This document shows positions 9,633 to 18,994 of a DNA stretch of 64,000 nucleotides, piece after piece (the first letter of the stretch is position 1; every line of letters starts with the position of its first letter). Made by a program: the position numbers and the translations under genes. The DNA is from an uncultured Alistipes sp. (GTDB taxonomy: Bacteria; Bacteroidota; Bacteroidia; Bacteroidales; Rikenellaceae), in NCBI GenBank assembly GCA_947364365.1, contig CANASP010000008.1, positions 46,028-110,027 on the forward strand. The letters run 5' to 3'. The notes beneath the pieces are model-generated. The model was not told the origin of the DNA. It saw only the letters and a list, made by a program, of their open reading frames with translations, and searched no databases.

Positions 9633-10700
9633 TCAAACCATCTTCAGCGATCGGAGTACAAGCAGTGTTCGCTCCAAACCACGCCGTATATCATATGCAG
9701 GATACCAACCAAGCGATCTCAATTTTGCACCATTCAACCGGGCCTTCGTAGCCTTGCTGTAACCCACTCGTTCAACTTCATCAGGCAGTTCGAATATCAC
9801 CTTCCGACCGGATATATCCGCGATTATTCCCGCCAAATCCTTAAGCCGAATGTCTGAACTCCCATCTGCCACATTGTAAGCCTCACCATCCTGGCCATTC
9901 AGCAGAATCGTTAATAATCCAGAGACCGCATCCGCGACATAGGTATACGAATAGTATTGCGTTCCTGCGCTTTTCAATACAATATCCTCTCCCCGCACTC
10001 CTTTTAGAATAAACTGAGATATGGCTTTGGTATCCGACGCCAACATGGTGGGACCATAGGAGCGAGTGAGTCGCGGTATAACAACTTCCAACCCCTTCTG
10101 TCGCCGATATGCTTGACATAATGCCTCTCCACATCGTTTGCTTTCTGGGTAACCAGCGCGCAACGTATTGGAATCTATATAACCGCAGTATGATTCGTCA
10201 AACAGTTCTTCATCGCCTCGATTTTCCCCATATATTTCATTCGACGATGCAAAAACAAAACGCCGGGCCTCTTTTTCGGCAGCAAATTCAAGCAAATTAT
10301 AAGTACCTATGATATTAGCAGTTATTGTTCCAATAGGATCGGTTGCATAAGCCACAGGATGGGTGTTGCTTGCCAAATGAATTACATAATCGACAGATCC
10401 GAACTGACCAGGATTCAGCGGTTTATTGATATCCTGACTGACAAATTCGAACCATTTTGAATCGTAATAACTGCCGAATCGCGATTTTGCTTTTTCTATG
10501 CTGCGACCAAGAGCATATACTTTACAACACAATCCGTTAACCGAATTTGCATACATGATAACATCCACCAAGAAACTCCCGATCAATCCAGTAGATCCTG
10601 CAATAACCAGGCTCCGATTTTTCAATTTTTCCCATGGCAAATCGACAGAGCCAACAGTCTCTACATCCTCTCTGTATAATGCACTATCAAGCATATTCAC
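9633..10700 (-). CDS. NAD-dependent epimerase/dehydratase (extended SDR)
   Basis: 355 aa extended short-chain dehydrogenase/reductase. The Rossmann motif GSTGLIGS lies near residues 35-42 and the catalytic pair as YPESK near residue 184. Extended SDRs in capsule loci act on nucleotide sugars (epimerases, 4,6-dehydratases, decarboxylases). This gene ends next to an IspD/TarI-like cytidylyltransferase with no spacer, so its substrate could be a CDP-linked polyol or sugar instead of a UDP-sugar; that is an inference from position only. Confidence 0.88.
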   Translation of the reverse strand: MNMLDSALYREDVETVGSVDLPWEKLKNRSLVIAGSTGLIGSFLVDVIMYANSVNGLCCKVYALGRSIEKAKSRFGSYYDSKWFEFVSQDINKPLNPGQFGSVDYVIHLASNTHPVAYATDPIGTITANIIGTYNLLEFAAEKEARRFVFASSNEIYGENRGDEELFDESYCGYIDSNTLRAGYPESKRCGEALCQAYRRQKGLEVVIPRLTRSYGPTMLASDTKAISQFILKGVRGEDIVLKSAGTQYYSYTYVADAVSGLLTILLNGQDGEAYNVADGSSDIRLKDLAGIIADISGRKVIFELPDEVERVGYSKATKARLNGAKLRSLGWYPAYDIRRGLERTLLVLRSLKMV

Positions 10701-11417
10701 TTATTTTAACCATTTATCCTTATCGGCTTTCAGATATGCCTTGAACATCTCCAGATCATCTTTCGTCGTAAGTTTGATATTCTTATCAGACCCGGCCGCA
10801 AAATAAAGCCGTTCGCCCAACTCCACCATCATCGTGTTCGTATAGGACGAACCGTATATACCGATCTTCTTCTCAAAAGCCTCATGGTACGCCTCGTCGA
10901 GTTTCTTAAATTTATAAGCCTGAGGCGTTGAAACACGGCGCAATGTTTCACGAGGAATATATTTCACAGTAGATATCTCATCATCCACGACAAAGATTTG
11001 CTCGTTATAAGGAAGCGACGTTACTGCATTACCATGTTTTTGGCAGGTCACAATGACATCCGACAAGACAGCGTCGTCCACTAATGGCCTAATACCATCA
11101 TGAATTATCACCACATCATCGGAGCTACAGATCCCTTCAAGATTATACACACCATTCCGAATCGATTCTTGGCCTGTAGCACCACCCGAAACAACCCATT
11201 TCAACTTCGTTATACCAAATTGTTTGGCATACGCCCACAATATATCATGCCAGCCATCGATACACACGACTTCGATGGCATCGATTTGCGGATGGTTCTG
11301 AAACCCCGAAAGCGTATATAACAATATGGGTTTATCGTAAACATTGATAAACTGCTTGGGGATATCTTGTCCCATACGGTGTCCGGATCCGCCAGCAATA
11401 ATTATAGCTACGTTCAT
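10701..11417 (-). CDS. IspD/TarI-like cytidylyltransferase
   Basis: 238 aa cytidylyltransferase of the IspD superfamily. The CTP-binding signature AGGSGHRMGQDIPKQF spans about residues 8-23; DGIRPL near 106-111 matches the conserved DxxRP motif. Members inside capsule loci (TarI, Bcs1 N-terminal domain) activate ribitol-5-phosphate or a related polyol phosphate to a CDP-polyol, whereas housekeeping IspD makes CDP-methylerythritol. Its place among a TagF-like transferase, a LicD protein and a second cytidylyltransferase favours the polyol role. It overlaps the flippase gene by 4 bases and abuts the epimerase gene. Confidence 0.88.
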   Translation of the reverse strand: MNVAIIIAGGSGHRMGQDIPKQFINVYDKPILLYTLSGFQNHPQIDAIEVVCIDGWHDILWAYAKQFGITKLKWVVSGGATGQESIRNGVYNLEGICSSDDVVIIHDGIRPLVDDAVLSDVIVTCQKHGNAVTSLPYNEQIFVVDDEISTVKYIPRETLRRVSTPQAYKFKKLDEAYHEAFEKKIGIYGSSYTNTMMVELGERLYFAAGSDKNIKLTTKDDLEMFKAYLKADKDKWLK

Positions 11418-12670
11418 ATTCTATATTTTTTTAGGTAAATCGATACAACAATAAGCCGAAAAAGCAGAACACACGCTTCAGTTATGGACGTCGCAATACA
11501 TACACTTACCAGATTCAGCATATCAGACATCCACAATATTAGCAACGAAACTATCTGGACTATTGCTCCAAAAAGAATCGAAAGATTTGCATATCGAGCA
11601 ATCCCCAGAGGGGTCATCATGGGAAATCCAAGGATATAACTAGGAAGGACAAAAATCATTACAGGGACAAGACATCTCAAAGGTAGCATTGCGGCCTCGT
11701 AATCGCGACCGAATACGAAAATACAGATCTCCGGAGCATAAATATATAAGATCACTGCACCGATCACAATAATCGGCATGGCTATAAATAAAATGGTCCG
11801 AACCAGTTTAAAGTTTTTATTTCTAATCAAATAGGGGTATAGACTGTCCGATATAGGAGACGCTCCAGATCTGGCGAGTGTAACAACCTTATCTGCCGAG
11901 GTATAATAACCCAGAACATTTTCTCCGGAATACAACAGGCCTAATATCATCGTATTAGTAGCGCCGTATACTGTCGAAGCGATTCTCGATACAAAAAATG
12001 GGAAAGAACCTGCCATTCTGAACCATATATCCCGGAAATCGATTTTGACGGCAGTCAGATCAAATCGTTTTTTAGCATCCCAAAAAGAAATAATAACCGC
12101 CAATGCAGATCCGAATAAATAGAGAACCGGTACTAATATATAATCATCAGGGGCTTTAACAAAAACAAATATACCTATTGTAAATATCAATTTGACGAAT
12201 AAAGTTCTATACGTAATCGGTTTCATGTCCTCCATCCCTCGATAGAGATAATCGGGAATCAGAGAATTCATAAAAGTATAAGCCCAGCAAATCCAGAACA
12301 CCGAACGACCCAACGCAAACTGAGGAAATGAATTGCACAAAATATATAAGACTCCCGCACACAAGAGCCCCAAAATAATCTTCCCGATAGATACCGACTC
12401 ACAAATCCGTGCAATCTTCTCCTTATCACCTTTCGCACTTGCGATTTCAGCTGTTGCAGATAACATAAACCCGAAATCCATTACCAGTTGAAAGTATATC
12501 ATAGTTGCAAATGCAAATCCCAAAAGACCATAAATCTCCGGCCCTAATACTCTCGTCTGATAAGGGACAGTCATGAACGAAAAGAAATAATTGGAAAAGG
12601 TCAACACATATAACATAACTGTGTTGATCGCCAAATTTCGTTTTCCCTCACCTCTATTTTCCATCTCCAA
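11414..12670 (-). CDS. Wzx-type polysaccharide flippase (MOP superfamily)
   Basis: 418 aa integral membrane protein with about 12 hydrophobic segments, matching the oligosaccharide flippase family. It would turn undecaprenyl-linked repeat units from the cytoplasmic to the periplasmic face. The N-terminal region (NTVMLYVLTFSNYFFSFMTV) and the PYQTRVLGPEIYGLLGFA block are typical of the family. Base composition is strongly AT-rich. The start overlaps the end of the upstream glycerophosphotransferase gene by 17 bases, which suggests translational coupling. Confidence 0.92.
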   Translation of the reverse strand: MEMENRGEGKRNLAINTVMLYVLTFSNYFFSFMTVPYQTRVLGPEIYGLLGFAFATMIYFQLVMDFGFMLSATAEIASAKGDKEKIARICESVSIGKIILGLLCAGVLYILCNSFPQFALGRSVFWICWAYTFMNSLIPDYLYRGMEDMKPITYRTLFVKLIFTIGIFVFVKAPDDYILVPVLYLFGSALAVIISFWDAKKRFDLTAVKIDFRDIWFRMAGSFPFFVSRIASTVYGATNTMILGLLYSGENVLGYYTSADKVVTLARSGASPISDSLYPYLIRNKNFKLVRTILFIAMPIIVIGAVILYIYAPEICIFVFGRDYEAAMLPLRCLVPVMIFVLPSYILGFPMMTPLGIARYANLSILFGAIVQIVSLLILWMSDMLNLVSVCIATSITEACVLLFRLIVVSIYLKKYRI

Positions 12671-13808
12671 TCACAGAGATTATACGATCTACAACCTGTT
12701 CCGATGCATGCCCTCCGTTAACATAGCCGCAATAGCGGAAATAGAAATCAGTTACTTTGCTTTTGTATTCCTTCTCGTCAAAATGCTCAATACATTCCAA
12801 TAACTCATCGTCGCTCGTTGCCACAGAAAAAGGCAACTCCTCAAAATGGAGTGTAAAATCCCGTTGTTTAATATAATCCTGAATATCCTTGGCCAAAATA
12901 AACGACGGTTTGGCCATAACTCCGAAATCGAAAATCGTACTCGAATAATCCGTTATCAAACAATCACTAATCAATAACAGCTCTTGTACATCCGGATACA
13001 TTGTAACGTTCTGAACATTATCATCCAACGACAAACCATCGACCAAAGCCGCTATATTGGGATGCAAACGAATCATCCCTCTCCATTTCCCTCCGAATTT
13101 AGTCTCCATGGCCGATAAGATACGCCTCCAAGGAATATCGTAGATCGAAAGATCAAACGATTGCATATCGCGCCTGAAAGTGGGCGCATACAGCAACAGA
13201 TGCTCGCCCTTCGTAATACCCAGCGACTGCCGAATCTGATCAATCTGCCGAGAGTCCGAACGCCACAATATATCTTGACGAGGAGCACCACAAATCATTA
13301 TCTCTCCATTGTACCAAAATACCCTCTTATACAAATCAAACGTCCATCGTGATTCCGCTAAAAAAAGATTCGCCATTTTCGAATCATTTTTTGCGGCCCG
13401 CACATACTCTATTGGAAGATTATCTTGCGCATCTTTCTCAATCTGTTTGATTGCTATGCCACCGTGCCATGTCATTATATAATATTGGCCCGCACGTTTT
13501 CTGACATATTCCCTTTTTCGCTTATTGTCTATCCAGATTTTAGCCGTTACCAATTCGTAGATAGCTCGGAGGGAGCGATACTGGACATGACGAACGTTTT
13601 CAGGAAACGAGGCATCATCTCGTGAGCTCAACCAAACAATGTCTGCATCTACGTTGCGTCGGAGAAGCTCCAATACAATGTATTTTCCGTTATCTCCGAA
13701 GCCGGCACCTGAATAACTGCTTATGACGATTTTATTCTTTTTAATCGGAAAAAATCGAAAAAAGTAAAACAAACATTTATACGCCCAATGTTTAATAGAC
13801 ATAATCAT
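12654..13808 (-). CDS. CDP-glycerol:glycerophosphotransferase family protein (TagB/TagF type)
   Basis: 384 aa protein of the family that transfers polyol-phosphate from CDP-glycerol or CDP-ribitol in teichoic-acid synthesis. Visible family blocks: MTWHGGIAIKQ (about residues 132-142), LLLYAPTFRRD (about 203-213), RLHPN (about 247-251) and DCLITDYSSTIFDF (about 284-297), the last with the conserved DYSS motif. It is unusual in a Gram-negative but known from teichoic-acid-like capsules. Together with two cytidylyltransferases in the same operon it supports a phosphodiester-linked polyol in the polymer. It probably works on the cytoplasmic membrane surface. Confidence 0.92.
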   Translation of the reverse strand: MIMSIKHWAYKCLFYFFRFFPIKKNKIVISSYSGAGFGDNGKYIVLELLRRNVDADIVWLSSRDDASFPENVRHVQYRSLRAIYELVTAKIWIDNKRKREYVRKRAGQYYIMTWHGGIAIKQIEKDAQDNLPIEYVRAAKNDSKMANLFLAESRWTFDLYKRVFWYNGEIMICGAPRQDILWRSDSRQIDQIRQSLGITKGEHLLLYAPTFRRDMQSFDLSIYDIPWRRILSAMETKFGGKWRGMIRLHPNIAALVDGLSLDDNVQNVTMYPDVQELLLISDCLITDYSSTIFDFGVMAKPSFILAKDIQDYIKQRDFTLHFEELPFSVATSDDELLECIEHFDEKEYKSKVTDFYFRYCGYVNGGHASEQVVDRIISVIGDGK

Positions 13809-13814
13809 CTATAA

Positions 13815-15041
13815 TTAAATAAGATAAATATCTTTGATCAAGCAGACAACCGGACTTGTAGTCAGAATAGAATAGATCCAATCAGATATATTGAAATATT
13901 GCAATCGGTATAACCACAAACAAAGGCATATAGGGGCTAATCCCATAATATATGTCAACGAGACTTTTTCCCATACCGATTTCAACGGCTTTTGCATACT
14001 CATCAAAAGCAGAGCGGAACTGCACACAAATGCGACAGCCGTAAAACGCCAGTACTCCGGCCTTAACATCGGGAAACAAGAGATAGCCATCAGCGACAAT
14101 AAAAATACGAATTGCTGATAGTTTAAAAGATTCTCTCTTTTAGTTTTTTGTATTGTATTATATTGCAGCGCCAGAATGCAGAATGCTGCCATCAAACTTA
14201 TATACAGAAATTTATGTACGCCAAAATATGCGCTATTACTTACCTCTATTCCCCAATCGGTACCTCTATCAAAAAAATAGTTATACGATTTGATCATCAG
14301 AAAATTTACAAAGACATTCGATGTATAATAGGGAATTGTAAAATAGAGCAACTCGACAAAAGGGCCAATAAAAGCCGCCAATATCAATAACAGACATCTT
14401 GATTTTTGAGTAATCTTTACGACTGCTCGTAACAAAATCAAAATAATAGACGTAGGGTGAATTGTTATCGGCAATATATATAAAAGCAGGGTATACAATC
14501 CTCTTTTTCTCTGATATACATCTCGAAATACAGCTAATCCGACCAAGCTGAAAGCCAATATGTTTCTGACATTATTGGCAATAGCATACCAATCAATAAA
14601 GCAAACTAATAACAGCAAATAAATTCGTAAGAATCGATAGCTGATCTTTTCATTCTGAAATATAACAAAGGTTATATACAGCCCAATATAATAAACGAAG
14701 AACGTGCTGACAGCCGGAAGAAGATGATAGTCATGAGAATGAGCGGCAATCCATGCAACTGCATTGAATATGTATAATCCAGGCTGCCCTTCATATATAT
14801 GCATGACACCATCCCAGAAACTCAAAAAAACAAAATTATCTATATAATCGAAATACCGGCTTAGATCAGTCTCGTCCAAAGGGACATAACTATACGACAT
14901 GACTGCAAAGAACAAACTTATGACAAAGATATGTTCTTTCCAGCATTTTGCAGATCGAGCCAAACAACATAAAGATAATATGAACGCCAGAGGCGGAAAA
15001 ACGATAGCTAATAATATAATTATAATGCCATTTCTATTCAT
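13815..15041 (-). CDS. EpsG/Wzy-type polysaccharide polymerase
   Basis: 408 aa multi-pass membrane protein with about 10-12 hydrophobic segments, matching the EpsG/O-antigen polymerase-like family. The N-terminal block with YVPLDETDLSRYFDYI (about residues 51-66) is typical of EpsG relatives. It would join flipped repeat units on the periplasmic side. Very AT-rich. Its last genes downstream are the transferases and flippase, and its start overlaps the preceding glycosyltransferase by 8 bases. Polymerases have low sequence conservation; assignment rests on topology, that block and context. Confidence 0.85.
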   Translation of the reverse strand: MNRNGIIIILLAIVFPPLAFILSLCCLARSAKCWKEHIFVISLFFAVMSYSYVPLDETDLSRYFDYIDNFVFLSFWDGVMHIYEGQPGLYIFNAVAWIAAHSHDYHLLPAVSTFFVYYIGLYITFVIFQNEKISYRFLRIYLLLLVCFIDWYAIANNVRNILAFSLVGLAVFRDVYQRKRGLYTLLLYILPITIHPTSIILILLRAVVKITQKSRCLLLILAAFIGPFVELLYFTIPYYTSNVFVNFLMIKSYNYFFDRGTDWGIEVSNSAYFGVHKFLYISLMAAFCILALQYNTIQKTKRENLLNYQQFVFLLSLMAISCFPMLRPEYWRFTAVAFVCSSALLLMSMQKPLKSVWEKVSLTYIMGLAPICLCLWLYRLQYFNISDWIYSILTTSPVVCLIKDIYLI

Positions 15042-16008
15042 TTAATCTTAAATATTTCGCACAATAGATTCTCGAAATAAATTTATAGACAGGAAAGCTC
15101 ACACACAATGCGATGGCAGACAACTTCCGCGTCCATCTTAAAAATCTGCACCTCAGGATATTCAGTATATTTTCTCTCAAAAACGCAATGATGTCTTCCG
15201 CTTCTTTGGAAAACTCCTTTTCTGCTTTCGAGAGCAGCATTCTGTCCAATGTTATAAAATAGGCCCAACAAAGACGCCCGAATGCCATTTGTTGCAATTC
15301 GGGATAAGCCGTCTTAACCAGGTCGTAATTGATACGATACGCTTCGATAACGTCAAACTGAGTTTTCGTAAACCGTGAGGTAGTAATACTATCGGATCTA
15401 TGGATATAATAATATTTCTGCTCTGAAGAAATAACAACTCGGTCTGTATTCATCAATAATCGAACAATGACAAATGCATCTTCAGATGTTTTTCCTTCAG
15501 GATATCTTATGTTGTTAAATATTTCCGCCTTATACAACTTATTGCATGCACTCGCTCCGGATATCTTTCCTTCAAAGACTGCACATAGAGCATCCGTAGG
15601 ATTCAATATTGCATAATACGGCTCATTTTTTTTAATAGGTCTGCCACAGTAACAATCATAATAACCGCAGATCGCCAGATCCGCATTTTCCTTTTCGATG
15701 ATTCCAGACAGATATTCATACATATCATGGTCGATGTAATCATCGCTATCCACGAAACCCAGATATTTTCCTGCTGCAACGTCAATCCCCGCATTTCTTG
15801 CAGAACTTAACCCGCCGTTTTCTTTGTGGATAACACGGATTCGCTTGTCTTTCGCAGCATATTCCTCACACAATCGACCGCTATTGTCCGTCGAGCCGTC
15901 ATCTACCAGTATAAGTTCAAAATCAGAAAAAGTTTGAGATAGGATCGAATCAACGCATCTACCCAAATATTTCTCTACATTATATACCGGAACAATAATG
16001 GAGATCAT
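15034..16008 (-). CDS. Family 2 glycosyltransferase
   Basis: 324 aa GT-A enzyme. The donor-binding start MISIIVPVYNVEKYLGRCVD (residues 1-20), DDGSTDNSG (about 36-44) and DSDDYID (about 87-93, with the DxD metal motif) are all present. There is no N-terminal membrane segment; a hydrophobic stretch occurs near the C-terminus. It would add one residue of the capsule repeat. It is six bases downstream of the LicD gene and overlaps the polymerase gene by 8 bases. Confidence 0.92.
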   Translation of the reverse strand: MISIIVPVYNVEKYLGRCVDSILSQTFSDFELILVDDGSTDNSGRLCEEYAAKDKRIRVIHKENGGLSSARNAGIDVAAGKYLGFVDSDDYIDHDMYEYLSGIIEKENADLAICGYYDCYCGRPIKKNEPYYAILNPTDALCAVFEGKISGASACNKLYKAEIFNNIRYPEGKTSEDAFVIVRLLMNTDRVVISSEQKYYYIHRSDSITTSRFTKTQFDVIEAYRINYDLVKTAYPELQQMAFGRLCWAYFITLDRMLLSKAEKEFSKEAEDIIAFLRENILNILRCRFLRWTRKLSAIALCVSFPVYKFISRIYCAKYLRLNE

Positions 16009-16013
16009 TTCGT

Positions 16014-16880
16014 TTACTTTTTTACAAGATATTTTACACCTTTGTATTTACAAGCAGGTTGTTTCAGATCCATAAAAACAACATCATGCGACGGAACCTG
16101 TTTGTCTTCGGAGGGTAATTGCATATAATCGCCAAATGCTATTTTCAGATATTGATCATAACCGACAGGAACGGGCATCATCGTATTCTCAAACGGCAAC
16201 GACAAACTGTATGCGAATGCCTCCTTCGGATATTTGTTTTTCATATATCCTGGTCCCGAGCACAATTCGGTAATCCCGTCGCAGTCCTGGATTTTATGCT
16301 TGGACATCTGCTTTTCTGCATAAACAGATATTTTATACCTTATCGAAGGGCTTGGAATAACAAATAATAATCCTTTACCTATGGCACGAATAAATTTGCC
16401 ATGTTTTTTGGGAACAATCTGAGCACGATACAACGAATATATTAAGGCCCAAAAACATTGCAAGACACGAGCAATCCGCGAATTCGGATATCCATCCAAT
16501 GGCAATACGTCAAGTACTATACCTTGAGTAATATCCATATCGGCTTGATACGGTTTGATATAAGTGGTCTGGCTATCTCTAATAACAAAAAACAGATTGC
16601 CGTCGATATGCTTTTCATCGGATTTTTCCAGCTTATATCTTCCTGTTTGCATTTCTTCCCGCCAAAGACAAATAGCCCTTTCATAATCTGCCCTCGGCAT
16701 AAAAAAATCCAGATCATCATCCCATGGAATCCACCCTTTATGTCGTATTGCACCTATACATCCACCGCCACACAAATAGCAGAGAAGATTGTGTCTCTTA
16801 CAGAACGAAACAAATTCTTCTGCCATTTTAAGATTCAGATCATGCAATAAAGCCAATTCATCTGTGGTAATCCGCCCCAT
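16014..16880 (-). CDS. LicD family phosphotransferase
   Basis: 288 aa LicD/FKRP-type nucleotidyl-phospho transferase, a family that moves phosphorylcholine or polyol phosphates from CDP-activated donors onto glycans. The family core is seen as CGGGCIGAIRHKGWIPWDDD (about residues 37-56): a glycine-rich turn followed by HKGWIPWDDDLD, whose Asp residues bind metal. No licC-type choline cytidylyltransferase or choline uptake gene is seen here, so the donor is more likely a CDP-polyol made by the neighbouring enzymes; this is inference. Confidence 0.92.
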   Translation of the reverse strand: MGRITTDELALLHDLNLKMAEEFVSFCKRHNLLCYLCGGGCIGAIRHKGWIPWDDDLDFFMPRADYERAICLWREEMQTGRYKLEKSDEKHIDGNLFFVIRDSQTTYIKPYQADMDITQGIVLDVLPLDGYPNSRIARVLQCFWALIYSLYRAQIVPKKHGKFIRAIGKGLLFVIPSPSIRYKISVYAEKQMSKHKIQDCDGITELCSGPGYMKNKYPKEAFAYSLSLPFENTMMPVPVGYDQYLKIAFGDYMQLPSEDKQVPSHDVVFMDLKQPACKYKGVKYLVKK

Positions 16881-16903: not shown

Positions 16904-17626
16904 CTATAGCCGTCCCGATTTTATTTTATAATCATAACTTTCCAGTCCGAAATCGTGCGGAGAATCTTGATAACGAGCAATAACGTTTCGAAAAACGTCA
17001 TCATACTGCGGAATGTACAACAACTCCTTATCCATCATGCGCTTAACAATTTCATTAGAGAGTTCTCTCGTCTGAGATAAATCCGTTTCGCCTCCGGAAA
17101 AGCTCGTACCTGTGATTGATCCGGGCGAAACCTCCAATATACGATTCTTAGCACCGCCCTTTTCCAGTTCGACATTCACACTTTCTATAAAACGATGCAA
17201 AGCAGCTTTGGAAGCGCTGTATATCGAGAAAAACGGCGACGATATCATTCCCGCAATACTGACCATTACAGCACAATGGAAATCACATGTCGAGGATTGC
17301 AATTTCGAGTAAAAATGTTTCAAGATGCGAATCACTCCAACCGTATTCACTAAAAACAAAGGCTCAATTTCAGTTTCATCAATATCCTGGAACAACCCCA
17401 ATTTACCATATCCAGCAGTTATCACCAAAGTCGAGATCGATTCATCCAACCTATCGAATATCGAGTAATCCTTATTTAAAAGGTCAAAGGGAATATATTG
17501 AACACTCTTCGGGACACATACAGGCTTGCATTTATCAATTATATAAATTTTATCATATCCCTTTAAGACATGCGTGATAGACAATCCAATCCCATTGCCA
17601 CCACCGACTATTAACGCAGATTTCAT
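16904..17626 (-). CDS. Short-chain dehydrogenase/reductase
   Basis: 240 aa classical SDR. The cofactor motif GGGNGIGLS (residues 8-16) and the catalytic YSASKAA (about 137-143) with upstream Ser are present. In CDP-ribitol synthesis the Bcs1 C-terminal domain is an SDR that reduces ribulose-5-phosphate; this gene, three bases after the cytidylyltransferase-oxidoreductase fusion gene, could play a similar ketoreductase role. The alternative is modification of another sugar precursor. The substrate cannot be settled from the sequence. Confidence 0.88.
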   Translation of the reverse strand: MKSALIVGGGNGIGLSITHVLKGYDKIYIIDKCKPVCVPKSVQYIPFDLLNKDYSIFDRLDESISTLVITAGYGKLGLFQDIDETEIEPLFLVNTVGVIRILKHFYSKLQSSTCDFHCAVMVSIAGMISSPFFSIYSASKAALHRFIESVNVELEKGGAKNRILEVSPGSITGTSFSGGETDLSQTRELSNEIVKRMMDKELLYIPQYDDVFRNVIARYQDSPHDFGLESYDYKIKSGRL

Positions 17627-17629
17627 ATA

Positions 17630-18994
17630 TCAAATCAGAATGACCGACTCCTTATTCATATACTTTTCTATAATATCTGCAATAACGCAGCTCTCGCTCC
17701 GACGTAACCGGTGCGAACTCAAACGACCTCCGATAATCATAGAAATGAATTCCTGAAGTTCATAGCGCAATCCTTCCCCTTCATAGGTATAAAAATATTT
17801 CTTGTTATGATTCTGATCTTCGTAACGTACTTCAAAGAAGTCGGTTTTCCACCACGGAGCCGGAACATACACATATCCTTTTGTACCTGATACGACGAGA
17901 TTTCCCTCCGTCTTGACTCCCAATCCAAGAGTTATGGTCGATACGGCATGCGGATAATTGATGATCCCCTTCGTAAATATGTCAACACCGTTTTCCATCT
18001 TGGAATAGAACTGAATATCCTTATATTCTTTTCCTAATAACTTGATAATCGATAATAAAGGAAACGGAGACAGTTCAGTCATACAACCACCTGCCTGCAA
18101 AACATCCAACTCGCGCAATTGTTGTCCGACCACCAATTTCGATAATGAGGCCCGCACATCTATGACATCGCCGATCACACCGCTTTTTACCAAAGTAACC
18201 AGATGGGTAAACGCCGGACAATAGGCGGTTTTACTGGCTTCGAGCAAAACCAGACCTTTCGATTCCGCCAAGGCATACAACTCCCTGGCCTCGACGCCGC
18301 TCAACACCATCGGAATTTCACATAAAACATGTTTTCCGGCCAATAGGCTCTTTTTGACATATTCATAATGCGTCAGATGAGGGGACGCCACATATACGAC
18401 ATCCACATTCTGCAAAAAATCCGCAAGTGACGAATAACTCGCACCGATAGCATTTTCTTTGGCAAAAGTATGCGCCCGCTCAATATCCGGATCCAATATC
18501 GCCGTTATTTCCACACCGCTTACAAATCGACTTTCCGGAACAAAACGTCGCGCAATCCGCCCGGTCCCGATCATCCCCAGACGATAATTGAATTGTGACT
18601 CGGAACGAAGCATCGTCGAAGATATTCCTTCCGTTCGTGGTAAATACACCACCTTGCAGAATTCATTAAGATAATCGAATTTTCCTTCCCAATCCGATCC
18701 TATAGCCAATATGTCAACGTCATAACGTTGTATGTCATCTATTTTCTGCCCGACATAATCTTCTATGATAATCTCGTCAGCATAGCCGGTTCTACGAACA
18801 GCCTCAACTCGTTCCAGGACATTATTGCGCACATTTAGTTTTCCTCGTTCACGATCAAAACTGTCACTCGTAACACCTACAATCAAATAATCACCCAATT
18901 CTTTTGCTCGGCGCAGTAAGTTAATATGCCCCTGATGCAACAAATCATAAGTGCCATAGGTTATAACCTTAACCCGCTTATTCGGATTATGCAT
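17630..18994 (-). CDS. Fusion: CDP-glycerol-type cytidylyltransferase + Gfo/Idh/MocA oxidoreductase
   Basis: 454 aa two-domain protein. Residues 1-135 are a TagD/GCT-type cytidylyltransferase: TYGTYDLLHQGHINLL contains the HxGH nucleotide-binding motif and EGISSTMLR the ISSTxxR motif. From about residue 143 a Rossmann-fold Gfo/Idh/MocA oxidoreductase begins (GMIGTGRIARR), with the EIP block (corresponding to EKP) near residue 230 holding the catalytic-type acid. TagD alone is about 130 aa, so this is a true fusion, not read-through: no stop or restart lies between domains. It probably makes or modifies a CDP-polyol for the TagF-like or LicD transferase in the operon; which reaction the oxidoreductase performs is unknown. 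Confidence 0.92.
   Translation of the reverse strand: MHNPNKRVKVITYGTYDLLHQGHINLLRRAKELGDYLIVGVTSDSFDRERGKLNVRNNVLERVEAVRRTGYADEIIIEDYVGQKIDDIQRYDVDILAIGSDWEGKFDYLNEFCKVVYLPRTEGISSTMLRSESQFNYRLGMIGTGRIARRFVPESRFVSGVEITAILDPDIERAHTFAKENAIGASYSSLADFLQNVDVVYVASPHLTHYEYVKKSLLAGKHVLCEIPMVLSGVEARELYALAESKGLVLLEASKTAYCPAFTHLVTLVKSGVIGDVIDVRASLSKLVVGQQLRELDVLQAGGCMTELSPFPLLSIIKLLGKEYKDIQFYSKMENGVDIFTKGIINYPHAVSTITLGLGVKTEGNLVVSGTKGYVYVPAPWWKTDFFEVRYEDQNHNKKYFYTYEGEGLRYELQEFISMIIGGRLSSHRLRRSESCVIADIIEKYMNKESVILI

Follow-up and report, generated by a model that had tools for sequence, protein, structure and literature searches.

Gene content of the locus

Within the 64,000-nucleotide stretch of DNA analysed here (the window), a single open reading frame joins an N-terminal cytidylyltransferase domain to a Gfo/Idh/MocA domain (Table 1). 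The first-pass annotation of this DNA had noted one frame with HQGH and ISSTMLR motifs followed by a Rossmann-fold oxidoreductase, which we confirmed and placed on the minus strand; domain matches bear out its reading of the protein, in which a cytidylyltransferase of the TagD type is joined to a Gfo domain within a capsule-type cluster. Genes for a short-chain dehydrogenase (SDR-A), a LicD-family phosphotransferase, a glycosyltransferase, a TagF-like phosphotransferase and a flippase lie on the same strand. The LicD-family enzyme is a candidate for using the CDP product; PMC4873967 describes enzymes with a LicD domain as acting on CDP conjugates.

Table 1. Features of the fusion locus, with positions in the window.
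Feature	Position	Strand	Evidence
Cytidylyltransferase-Gfo fusion protein, 454 aa	17630..18994	-	
TagD-like cytidylyltransferase domain, residues 9-132	18599..18970	-	PF01467, 67.6 bits; TagD/TarD structures matched
HQGH motif, residues 20-23	18926..18937	-	H20, G22, H23 in 120/120 fusions
ISSTMLR motif, residues 124-130	18605..18625	-	S125, S126 in 120/120 fusions
Gfo/Idh/MocA domain, residues 137-445	17660..18586	-	
Codon 227, Ile at the usual Gfo catalytic Lys (EKP) site	18314..18316	-	
Codon 255, Lys	18230..18232	-	Lys in 119/120 fusions, Trp in 29/34 stand-alone relatives
PWWKT motif, residues 380-384	17843..17857	-	P380, W381, W382 in 120/120 fusions
Partner short-chain dehydrogenase SDR-A, 240 aa, 3 bp downstream of fusion	16904..17626	-	PF00106, 59.6 bits
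LicD-family phosphotransferase	16014..16880	-	PF04991, 142.3 bits (cut-off 22.6)
Glycosyltransferase family 2	15034..16008	-	PF00535, 140.3 bits
TagF-like CDP-polyol phosphotransferase	12654..13808	-	PF04464, 244.7 bits
Flippase (Wzx-like)	11414..12670	-	PF01943, 146.6 bits

LicD or TagF-like genes were found within 4 kb of the fusion in 54 of 67 loci and were absent from this distance in 13, using HMMs for LicD, TagF-like, SDR and aminotransferase proteins that were built from one or a few seeds and may miss distant members. Where each flank reached at least 9 kb (51 loci), 31 LicD and 14 TagF-like genes lay at 0–2.5 kb, 7 and 4 at 2.5–5 kb, and 1 and 2 at 5–7.5 kb.

The window also holds a second CDP-polyol gene pair on the minus strand, an IspD-type cytidylyltransferase (PF01128, 10701–11417) and a PF01370 oxidoreductase (9633–10700) with an N-terminal extension of approximately 25–30 residues. 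This family pair is assigned to CDP-6-glucitol/CDP-mannitol in the available part of PMC10918830. Structures 8v4g/8v4h, named 'putative nucleotide sugar dehydratase', match the pair at approximately 120 bits, with UDP-glucuronate decarboxylase scoring higher; we infer that these structures represent HS5.17. The cluster may make two CDP donors.

The cytidylyltransferase domain

With TagD/TarD the domain shares its fold family, the HxGH and RTEGIS-type motifs (HQGH and RTEGISST in the window protein) and approximately 50% identity (53% to Listeria and Pontibacillus TagD). Residues H20, H23, K52, R62, K84, R120, S125 and S126 are identical in all 120 fusions compared. It differs from TagD/TarD in the attached Gfo domain, in a score of 123.8 bits against the TagD equivalog model TIGR01518 (cut-off 165.4) and in the replacement of the TagD tryptophan of the ENWEQK stretch: the aligned residue is Trp in none of the 120 fusions and in all six stand-alone GCT-like proteins scoring at least 115 bits. 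Three loci (L071, L182 and L184) carry a separate TagD-like gene in addition to the fusion. The lost Trp, these separate genes and the dedicated SDR support a product other than plain CDP-glycerol.

Coupling of a cytidylyltransferase to a reductase for CDP-polyol synthesis is already known from Bcs1/Acs1, TarIJ and HS5.18/HS5.17. The Bcs1/Acs1 reductase is of the SDR type, and TarIJ is the CDP-ribitol synthase counterpart. The fusion resembles Bcs1/Acs1 and TarIJ in tying a cytidylyltransferase to an oxidoreductase, presumably for a CDP-polyol. Bcs1/Acs1, however, joins an IspD-type cytidylyltransferase to its reductase (PMC4873967, available part), whereas here a TagD fold is paired with a Gfo fold, and the oxidoreductase that does the work is probably encoded separately. 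The window protein has PF01467 in place of an IspD-fold domain, which agrees with the first-pass view that it was built independently of the Bcs1/Acs1 type. The Campylobacter pair HS5.18/HS5.17, which makes CDP-6-D-glucitol, likewise combines a cytidylyltransferase with a carbonyl-reducing partner for a capsule CDP-polyol donor (PMC10918830, available part), but it belongs to the PF01128 and PF01370 families and is without a Gfo domain.

An objection raised with the first-pass annotation, that homologues might occur as two separate genes, found no footing: none of the 12 Gfo-less cytidylyltransferase ORFs examined belongs to the fusion's subtype. At L187:4411-6227, a fusion that keeps the EKP Lys (Lys-type) shares 4 bp at its start with a separate, stand-alone cytidylyltransferase ORF.

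Lost and gained residues of the Gfo domain

The Gfo part of the window protein matches PF01408 (N-terminal Rossmann) above the cut-off and has the Gfo fold; among its neighbours by fold are WlbA and KijD10, an NDP-3-ketosugar reductase. The EKP catalytic Lys, Asp and Tyr are each present in all 34 stand-alone Gfo relatives used as controls, which are the members of L092–L130 longer than 290 aa and represent the best-listed single-domain matches, not a random draw. In the window protein these positions hold Ile, E307 and F311, a difference from dimeric dihydrodiol dehydrogenase and KijD10 to which K255 and the KTEG and PWW residues, specific to fusions, add. Lys102 mutants of KijD10 have reportedly been made. 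Across the 120 fusions, the Lys site is occupied by Thr (54), Ile (52), Ser (6), Val (2) or Lys (6), the Asp site by Glu (114) or Ala/Gly/Thr (6) and never by Asp, and the Tyr at 311 is retained in 69.

The dinucleotide motif reads GTGRIA in the window protein, and GxG is found in 114 of 120 fusions. After the second strand, the stand-alone relatives carry Ser (33/34) and Arg (32/34); the fusions have Asp or Asn, with residues other than Arg after it, which we take to be an NAD-type pattern. All 114 fusions outside the Ser type retain both GxG and the NAD-type D/N168, which argues at the sequence level that NAD binding probably persists. The six Ser-type fusions, all aminotransferase-partnered, have lost G145 (the second GxG glycine) and E307 and have retained the fusion-specific residues. 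These are K361, E363, W381, W382, E388 and E392 (each 120/120), K255 (119/120) and R410 (119/120, with one gap); in the 34 stand-alone relatives, the K255 site is Trp in 29, the W381 site Trp in 27, and most other sites vary. L147 is the sole fusion among the 120 with Arg for K255.

The conservation of specific residues despite the loss of the catalytic set suggests that the domain is strongly constrained, but not as a classical dehydrogenase. Judged by its alignment, the Gfo domain is a remodelled reductase and perhaps non-catalytic. A missing EKP Lys need not mean inactivity, since biliverdin reductase works as a Gfo-fold reductase without it. As for the bifunctional redox and CTP-using enzyme proposed in the first-pass annotation, both domains are there; what finds no support in this protein is a role of the Gfo domain as the ordinary redox partner, given the replacement of Lys, Asp and Tyr by Ile, Glu and Phe and the separate SDR gene 3 bp downstream. 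A self-contained bifunctional enzyme is more likely in the related clade that keeps the Lys (6/120 loci, without adjacent partner).

Partner enzymes and their exchange

An adjacent partner gene was identified beside 107 of the 114 fusions that lack the Lys: SDR-A in 35, SDR-B in 48, the PhnW-like aminotransferase AT5 in 21 and the HisC-like AT1 in 3 (83 SDR-partnered in total, with the SDR fragment of L012 entered as a partner). Left out of this count were L081, L090 and L029 (which repeat the window, L135 and L168), the short loci L136–L142 and L148–L167 (for which longer versions were used, or which equal the window, L135, L064 or L071) and loci L091–L130. Six of the remaining seven fusions have a partner-type gene 0.9–4.6 kb away, and L031 has no partner gene in view. 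None of the six Lys-keeping fusions has an adjacent partner; the association is strong by count (Fisher p 5e-7), yet the six form one clade on one side of a branch and amount to one event. In L170, which is of this type, an SDR lies approximately 1 kb downstream, behind a glycosyltransferase.

By family, all four partner types are carbonyl-acting. SDR-A and SDR-B retain Ser, Tyr and Lys in their 90% consensus, and the closest NCBIfam models to the partners are SDR families, PhnW-AepZ (164.2 bits) and HisC (228.7 bits), with cut-offs missed among the matches listed. Of the 26 aminotransferase-partnered loci, 7 have an N-acyltransferase homologue within 4 kb, against 0 of the 87 SDR-partnered ones, a result favoured by queries that came from three of those seven loci; such neighbours fit an amine that is later acylated.

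A search for SDR-A in 61 genomes of the window's genus (E 1e-40 or better) found it in ten. Five of these had not been examined for the fusion beforehand, and all five then showed a fusion adjoining SDR-A. SDR-A thus adjoins the fusion in 10 of 10 genomes and is found in 0 of 46 fusion-less ones (Fisher p 3.3e-8, relatedness ignored). Five of the 15 fusions in the genus have SDR-B, and all 15 adjoin an SDR.

Partner labels were then placed on fusion trees of 94 and 120 rows, both of them 'quick' trees with long-branch warnings. The idea that SDR-A and SDR-B follow Gfo subfamily was rejected: the two labels require 26 changes on the 94-row tree, near the 29.5 (A) and 31.0 (B) that shuffling gave on average, and 58 (A) and 52 (B) of 500 shuffles gave 26 changes or fewer. 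On this tree SDR-A and SDR-B are, as far as the sequences tell, swapped for each other many times. Adding the aminotransferase label gave 28 changes against 34.3 when shuffled, a value as low being reached in 1 of 200 shuffles, which indicates some partner clustering. All four partner states require 31 changes on the 120-row tree, and two changes suffice for an alcohol/amine label.

Among fusions with Thr at the Lys site, 34 SDR-partnered and 19 aminotransferase-partnered members were compared (L143 left out). Their cytidylyltransferase domains are 89.6% alike between the partner groups and 88.3% (SDR) and 93.6% (aminotransferase) alike within them. Columns separating the groups number zero in the cytidylyltransferase domain and nine in the Gfo domain, a suggestive comparison that is confounded, as the aminotransferase-partnered fusions all belong to one clade and variation is higher in the Gfo domain.

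Distribution of the fusion

A scan of one genome per species yielded 348 relatives, and the best 80 of the 348 all span both domains. The fusion is present in 15 of 61 genomes of the window's genus (9/37 and 6/24), in 7 of 393 genomes of an order-level sample that includes the window's own, and in 24 of 167 genomes of the phylum of G452 (Fibrobacter). In a phylum-wide sample of 392 genomes, with at most four candidates scored per genome, the sole two-domain match listed was the window's own. The distribution is patchy. The family occurs in Bacteroidota, in Fibrobacterota and in one member of the class Clostridia, Ruminococcus albus, whose record annotates the fusion merely as 'adenylyltransferase/cytidyltransferase family protein'. 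In R. albus 7 it resides on plasmid pRUMAL01 (L131), which is typed as mobilizable; the fusion there belongs to a capsule-type cluster that also has three LicD genes.

Scans of a viral contig set did not find the fusion. Other fusions lie on three 'Bacteriophage sp.' contigs from human faeces (MT837899, MT837690 and MT836586; L132, L133 and L134), which, despite their label, resemble bacterial polysaccharide clusters with LicD, glycosyltransferases and the fusion.

An assembly error as the origin of the fusion was rejected, as it recurs in the species-level, genus, order and Fibrobacter-phylum scans. At single loci, the fusion of L073 is broken towards its 3' end into two ORFs that overlap, and the SDR of L012 is an ORF of just 267 nt; assembly error or gene decay is possible in both.

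Proposed function and alternatives

The sequences show the domains, their conservation, the partner swapping and the neighbouring transferase genes; every catalytic step, the sequence of steps and the substrate are inferred. The explanation we favour, and hold to be somewhat more probably right than wrong, is a CDP-donor module, made up of the fusion and the enzyme encoded beside it, that serves capsule or O-antigen synthesis. CMP from CTP would be moved by the N-terminal domain onto a small phosphorylated compound, most likely a keto-phosphate (or what is made from it). The partner, SDR-A here, would reduce the carbonyl to an alcohol; elsewhere an aminotransferase partner would convert it to an amine, sometimes followed by an N-acyltransferase, and a LicD or TagF-like enzyme would attach the polyol or amino-polyol phosphate to the glycan. 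For the Gfo domain, a role in holding or positioning the product, or a changed reaction, is probable. The uncommon CDP-polyol for the capsule that the first-pass annotation had envisaged is plausible, and we extend it to CDP-amino-polyols.

Our guess for the substrate is a C3 keto-phosphate such as DHAP, which would agree with descent from TagD, with a HisC-like partner and with the serinol-P precedent of Cj1437. This enzyme transaminates DHAP to serinol-P (PMC11800397, available part). As an aminotransferase that acts on a C3 keto-phosphate and belongs to a capsule cluster, it is a possible analogue of AT1 and AT5, but its product goes to amide formation and a CDP step is not mentioned in that part of the paper. 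The cytidylyltransferase may act before the partner, by analogy with Campylobacter HS:5, where an IspD-type cytidylyltransferase first places CMP onto fructose-6-P and the CDP-fructose is then reduced to CDP-glucitol (PMC10918830, available part); cytidylyltransferase domains that are equally alike whichever partner is present point the same way. This order would explain how one cytidylyltransferase serves reductases and aminotransferases alike. A further, possible though doubtful, extension is a combinatorial donor factory, in which one cytidylyltransferase loading CDP onto a shared small carbonyl compound and a pseudo-reductase holding the CDP-carbonyl would work with at least four exchangeable neighbours (two reductases and two aminotransferases) that set alcohol, other stereoisomer or amine.

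We know of no aminotransferase version of the HS5.18/HS5.17 pathway, and CDP-activated amino-polyols would, to our knowledge, be a new donor class. In the open-licence literature, where most subscription papers are missing, we found no paper on a TagD-Gfo fusion, on loss of the Gfo catalytic Lys with an external neighbouring enzyme, or on reductase/aminotransferase exchange in one gene slot. If the proposal is true, this enzyme family makes unrecorded capsule building blocks, the swap of reductase and aminotransferase in one slot would explain a source of capsule diversity, and one neighbour gene would predict the chemistry of many gut capsule clusters. The Gfo domain would then offer a clear example of natural selection preserving a redox domain whose catalytic Lys is gone.

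The main competing explanation assigns this domain an active role, as a working NAD dehydrogenase with a rebuilt active site in which K255 and E307 stand in for Lys and Asp. It would oxidize a CDP-linked or phosphorylated polyol to a ketone, which the SDR would re-reduce with other stereochemistry or the aminotransferase would aminate; the WlbA-aminotransferase-acetyltransferase route is the model. The NAD signature (GxG in 114/120, with D/N168 in those 114), the occurrence of K255 (119/120), E307 (114/120) and Tyr311 (69/120), and the fold neighbours KijD10 and WlbA are in line with such an enzyme. Gfo columns 286, 304 and 308 differ between SDR- and aminotransferase-partnered Thr-type members, although, the latter being one clade, these may be clade marks. 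We nevertheless consider it unlikely: the EKP Lys is gone in 114 and the Asp in all 120 fusions, and the six Ser-type fusions keep the fusion-specific residues without G145 and E307, so the module seems to run without Gfo redox.

Improbable, in our view, is an ordinary glycerol-3-phosphate cytidylyltransferase with a merely structural Gfo domain and an SDR that acts on an unrelated sugar. LicD and TagF-like enzymes can use CDP-glycerol, and the approximately 50% identity to TagD suits this explanation, but it conflicts with the missed TIGR01518 cut-off, the ENWEQK-stretch Trp (0/120 fusions against 6/6 GCT-like stand-alone proteins), the separate TagD-like gene in L071, L182 and L184, and an SDR-A that was not found without the fusion in the 61 genus genomes. 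Highly improbable is a phosphonate as the compound activated, in the manner of PntC and its class-V aminotransferase. AT5 is PhnW-like (TIGR03301 164.2 bits, against a cut-off of 360.8) and matches the nucleotidyltransferase/aminotransferase structure 6pd1, yet PntC belongs to other families (PMC6697681, available part). No PEP mutase above the cut-off of 31.5 bits was detected in the window's genome (87% complete; weaker matches of 27.6 and 21.8 bits) or in G452 and G454 (weaker matches only), and G453 has one marginal partial match (32.1 bits). We rejected the phosphonate reading, as a clear PEP mutase is missing from these four genomes.

The PhnW-like partner (L132:1521-2594 and homologues) is near PDB 3f0h over its full length (540 bits); that protein was deposited merely as 'Aminotransferase', and its pathway may be the one proposed here.
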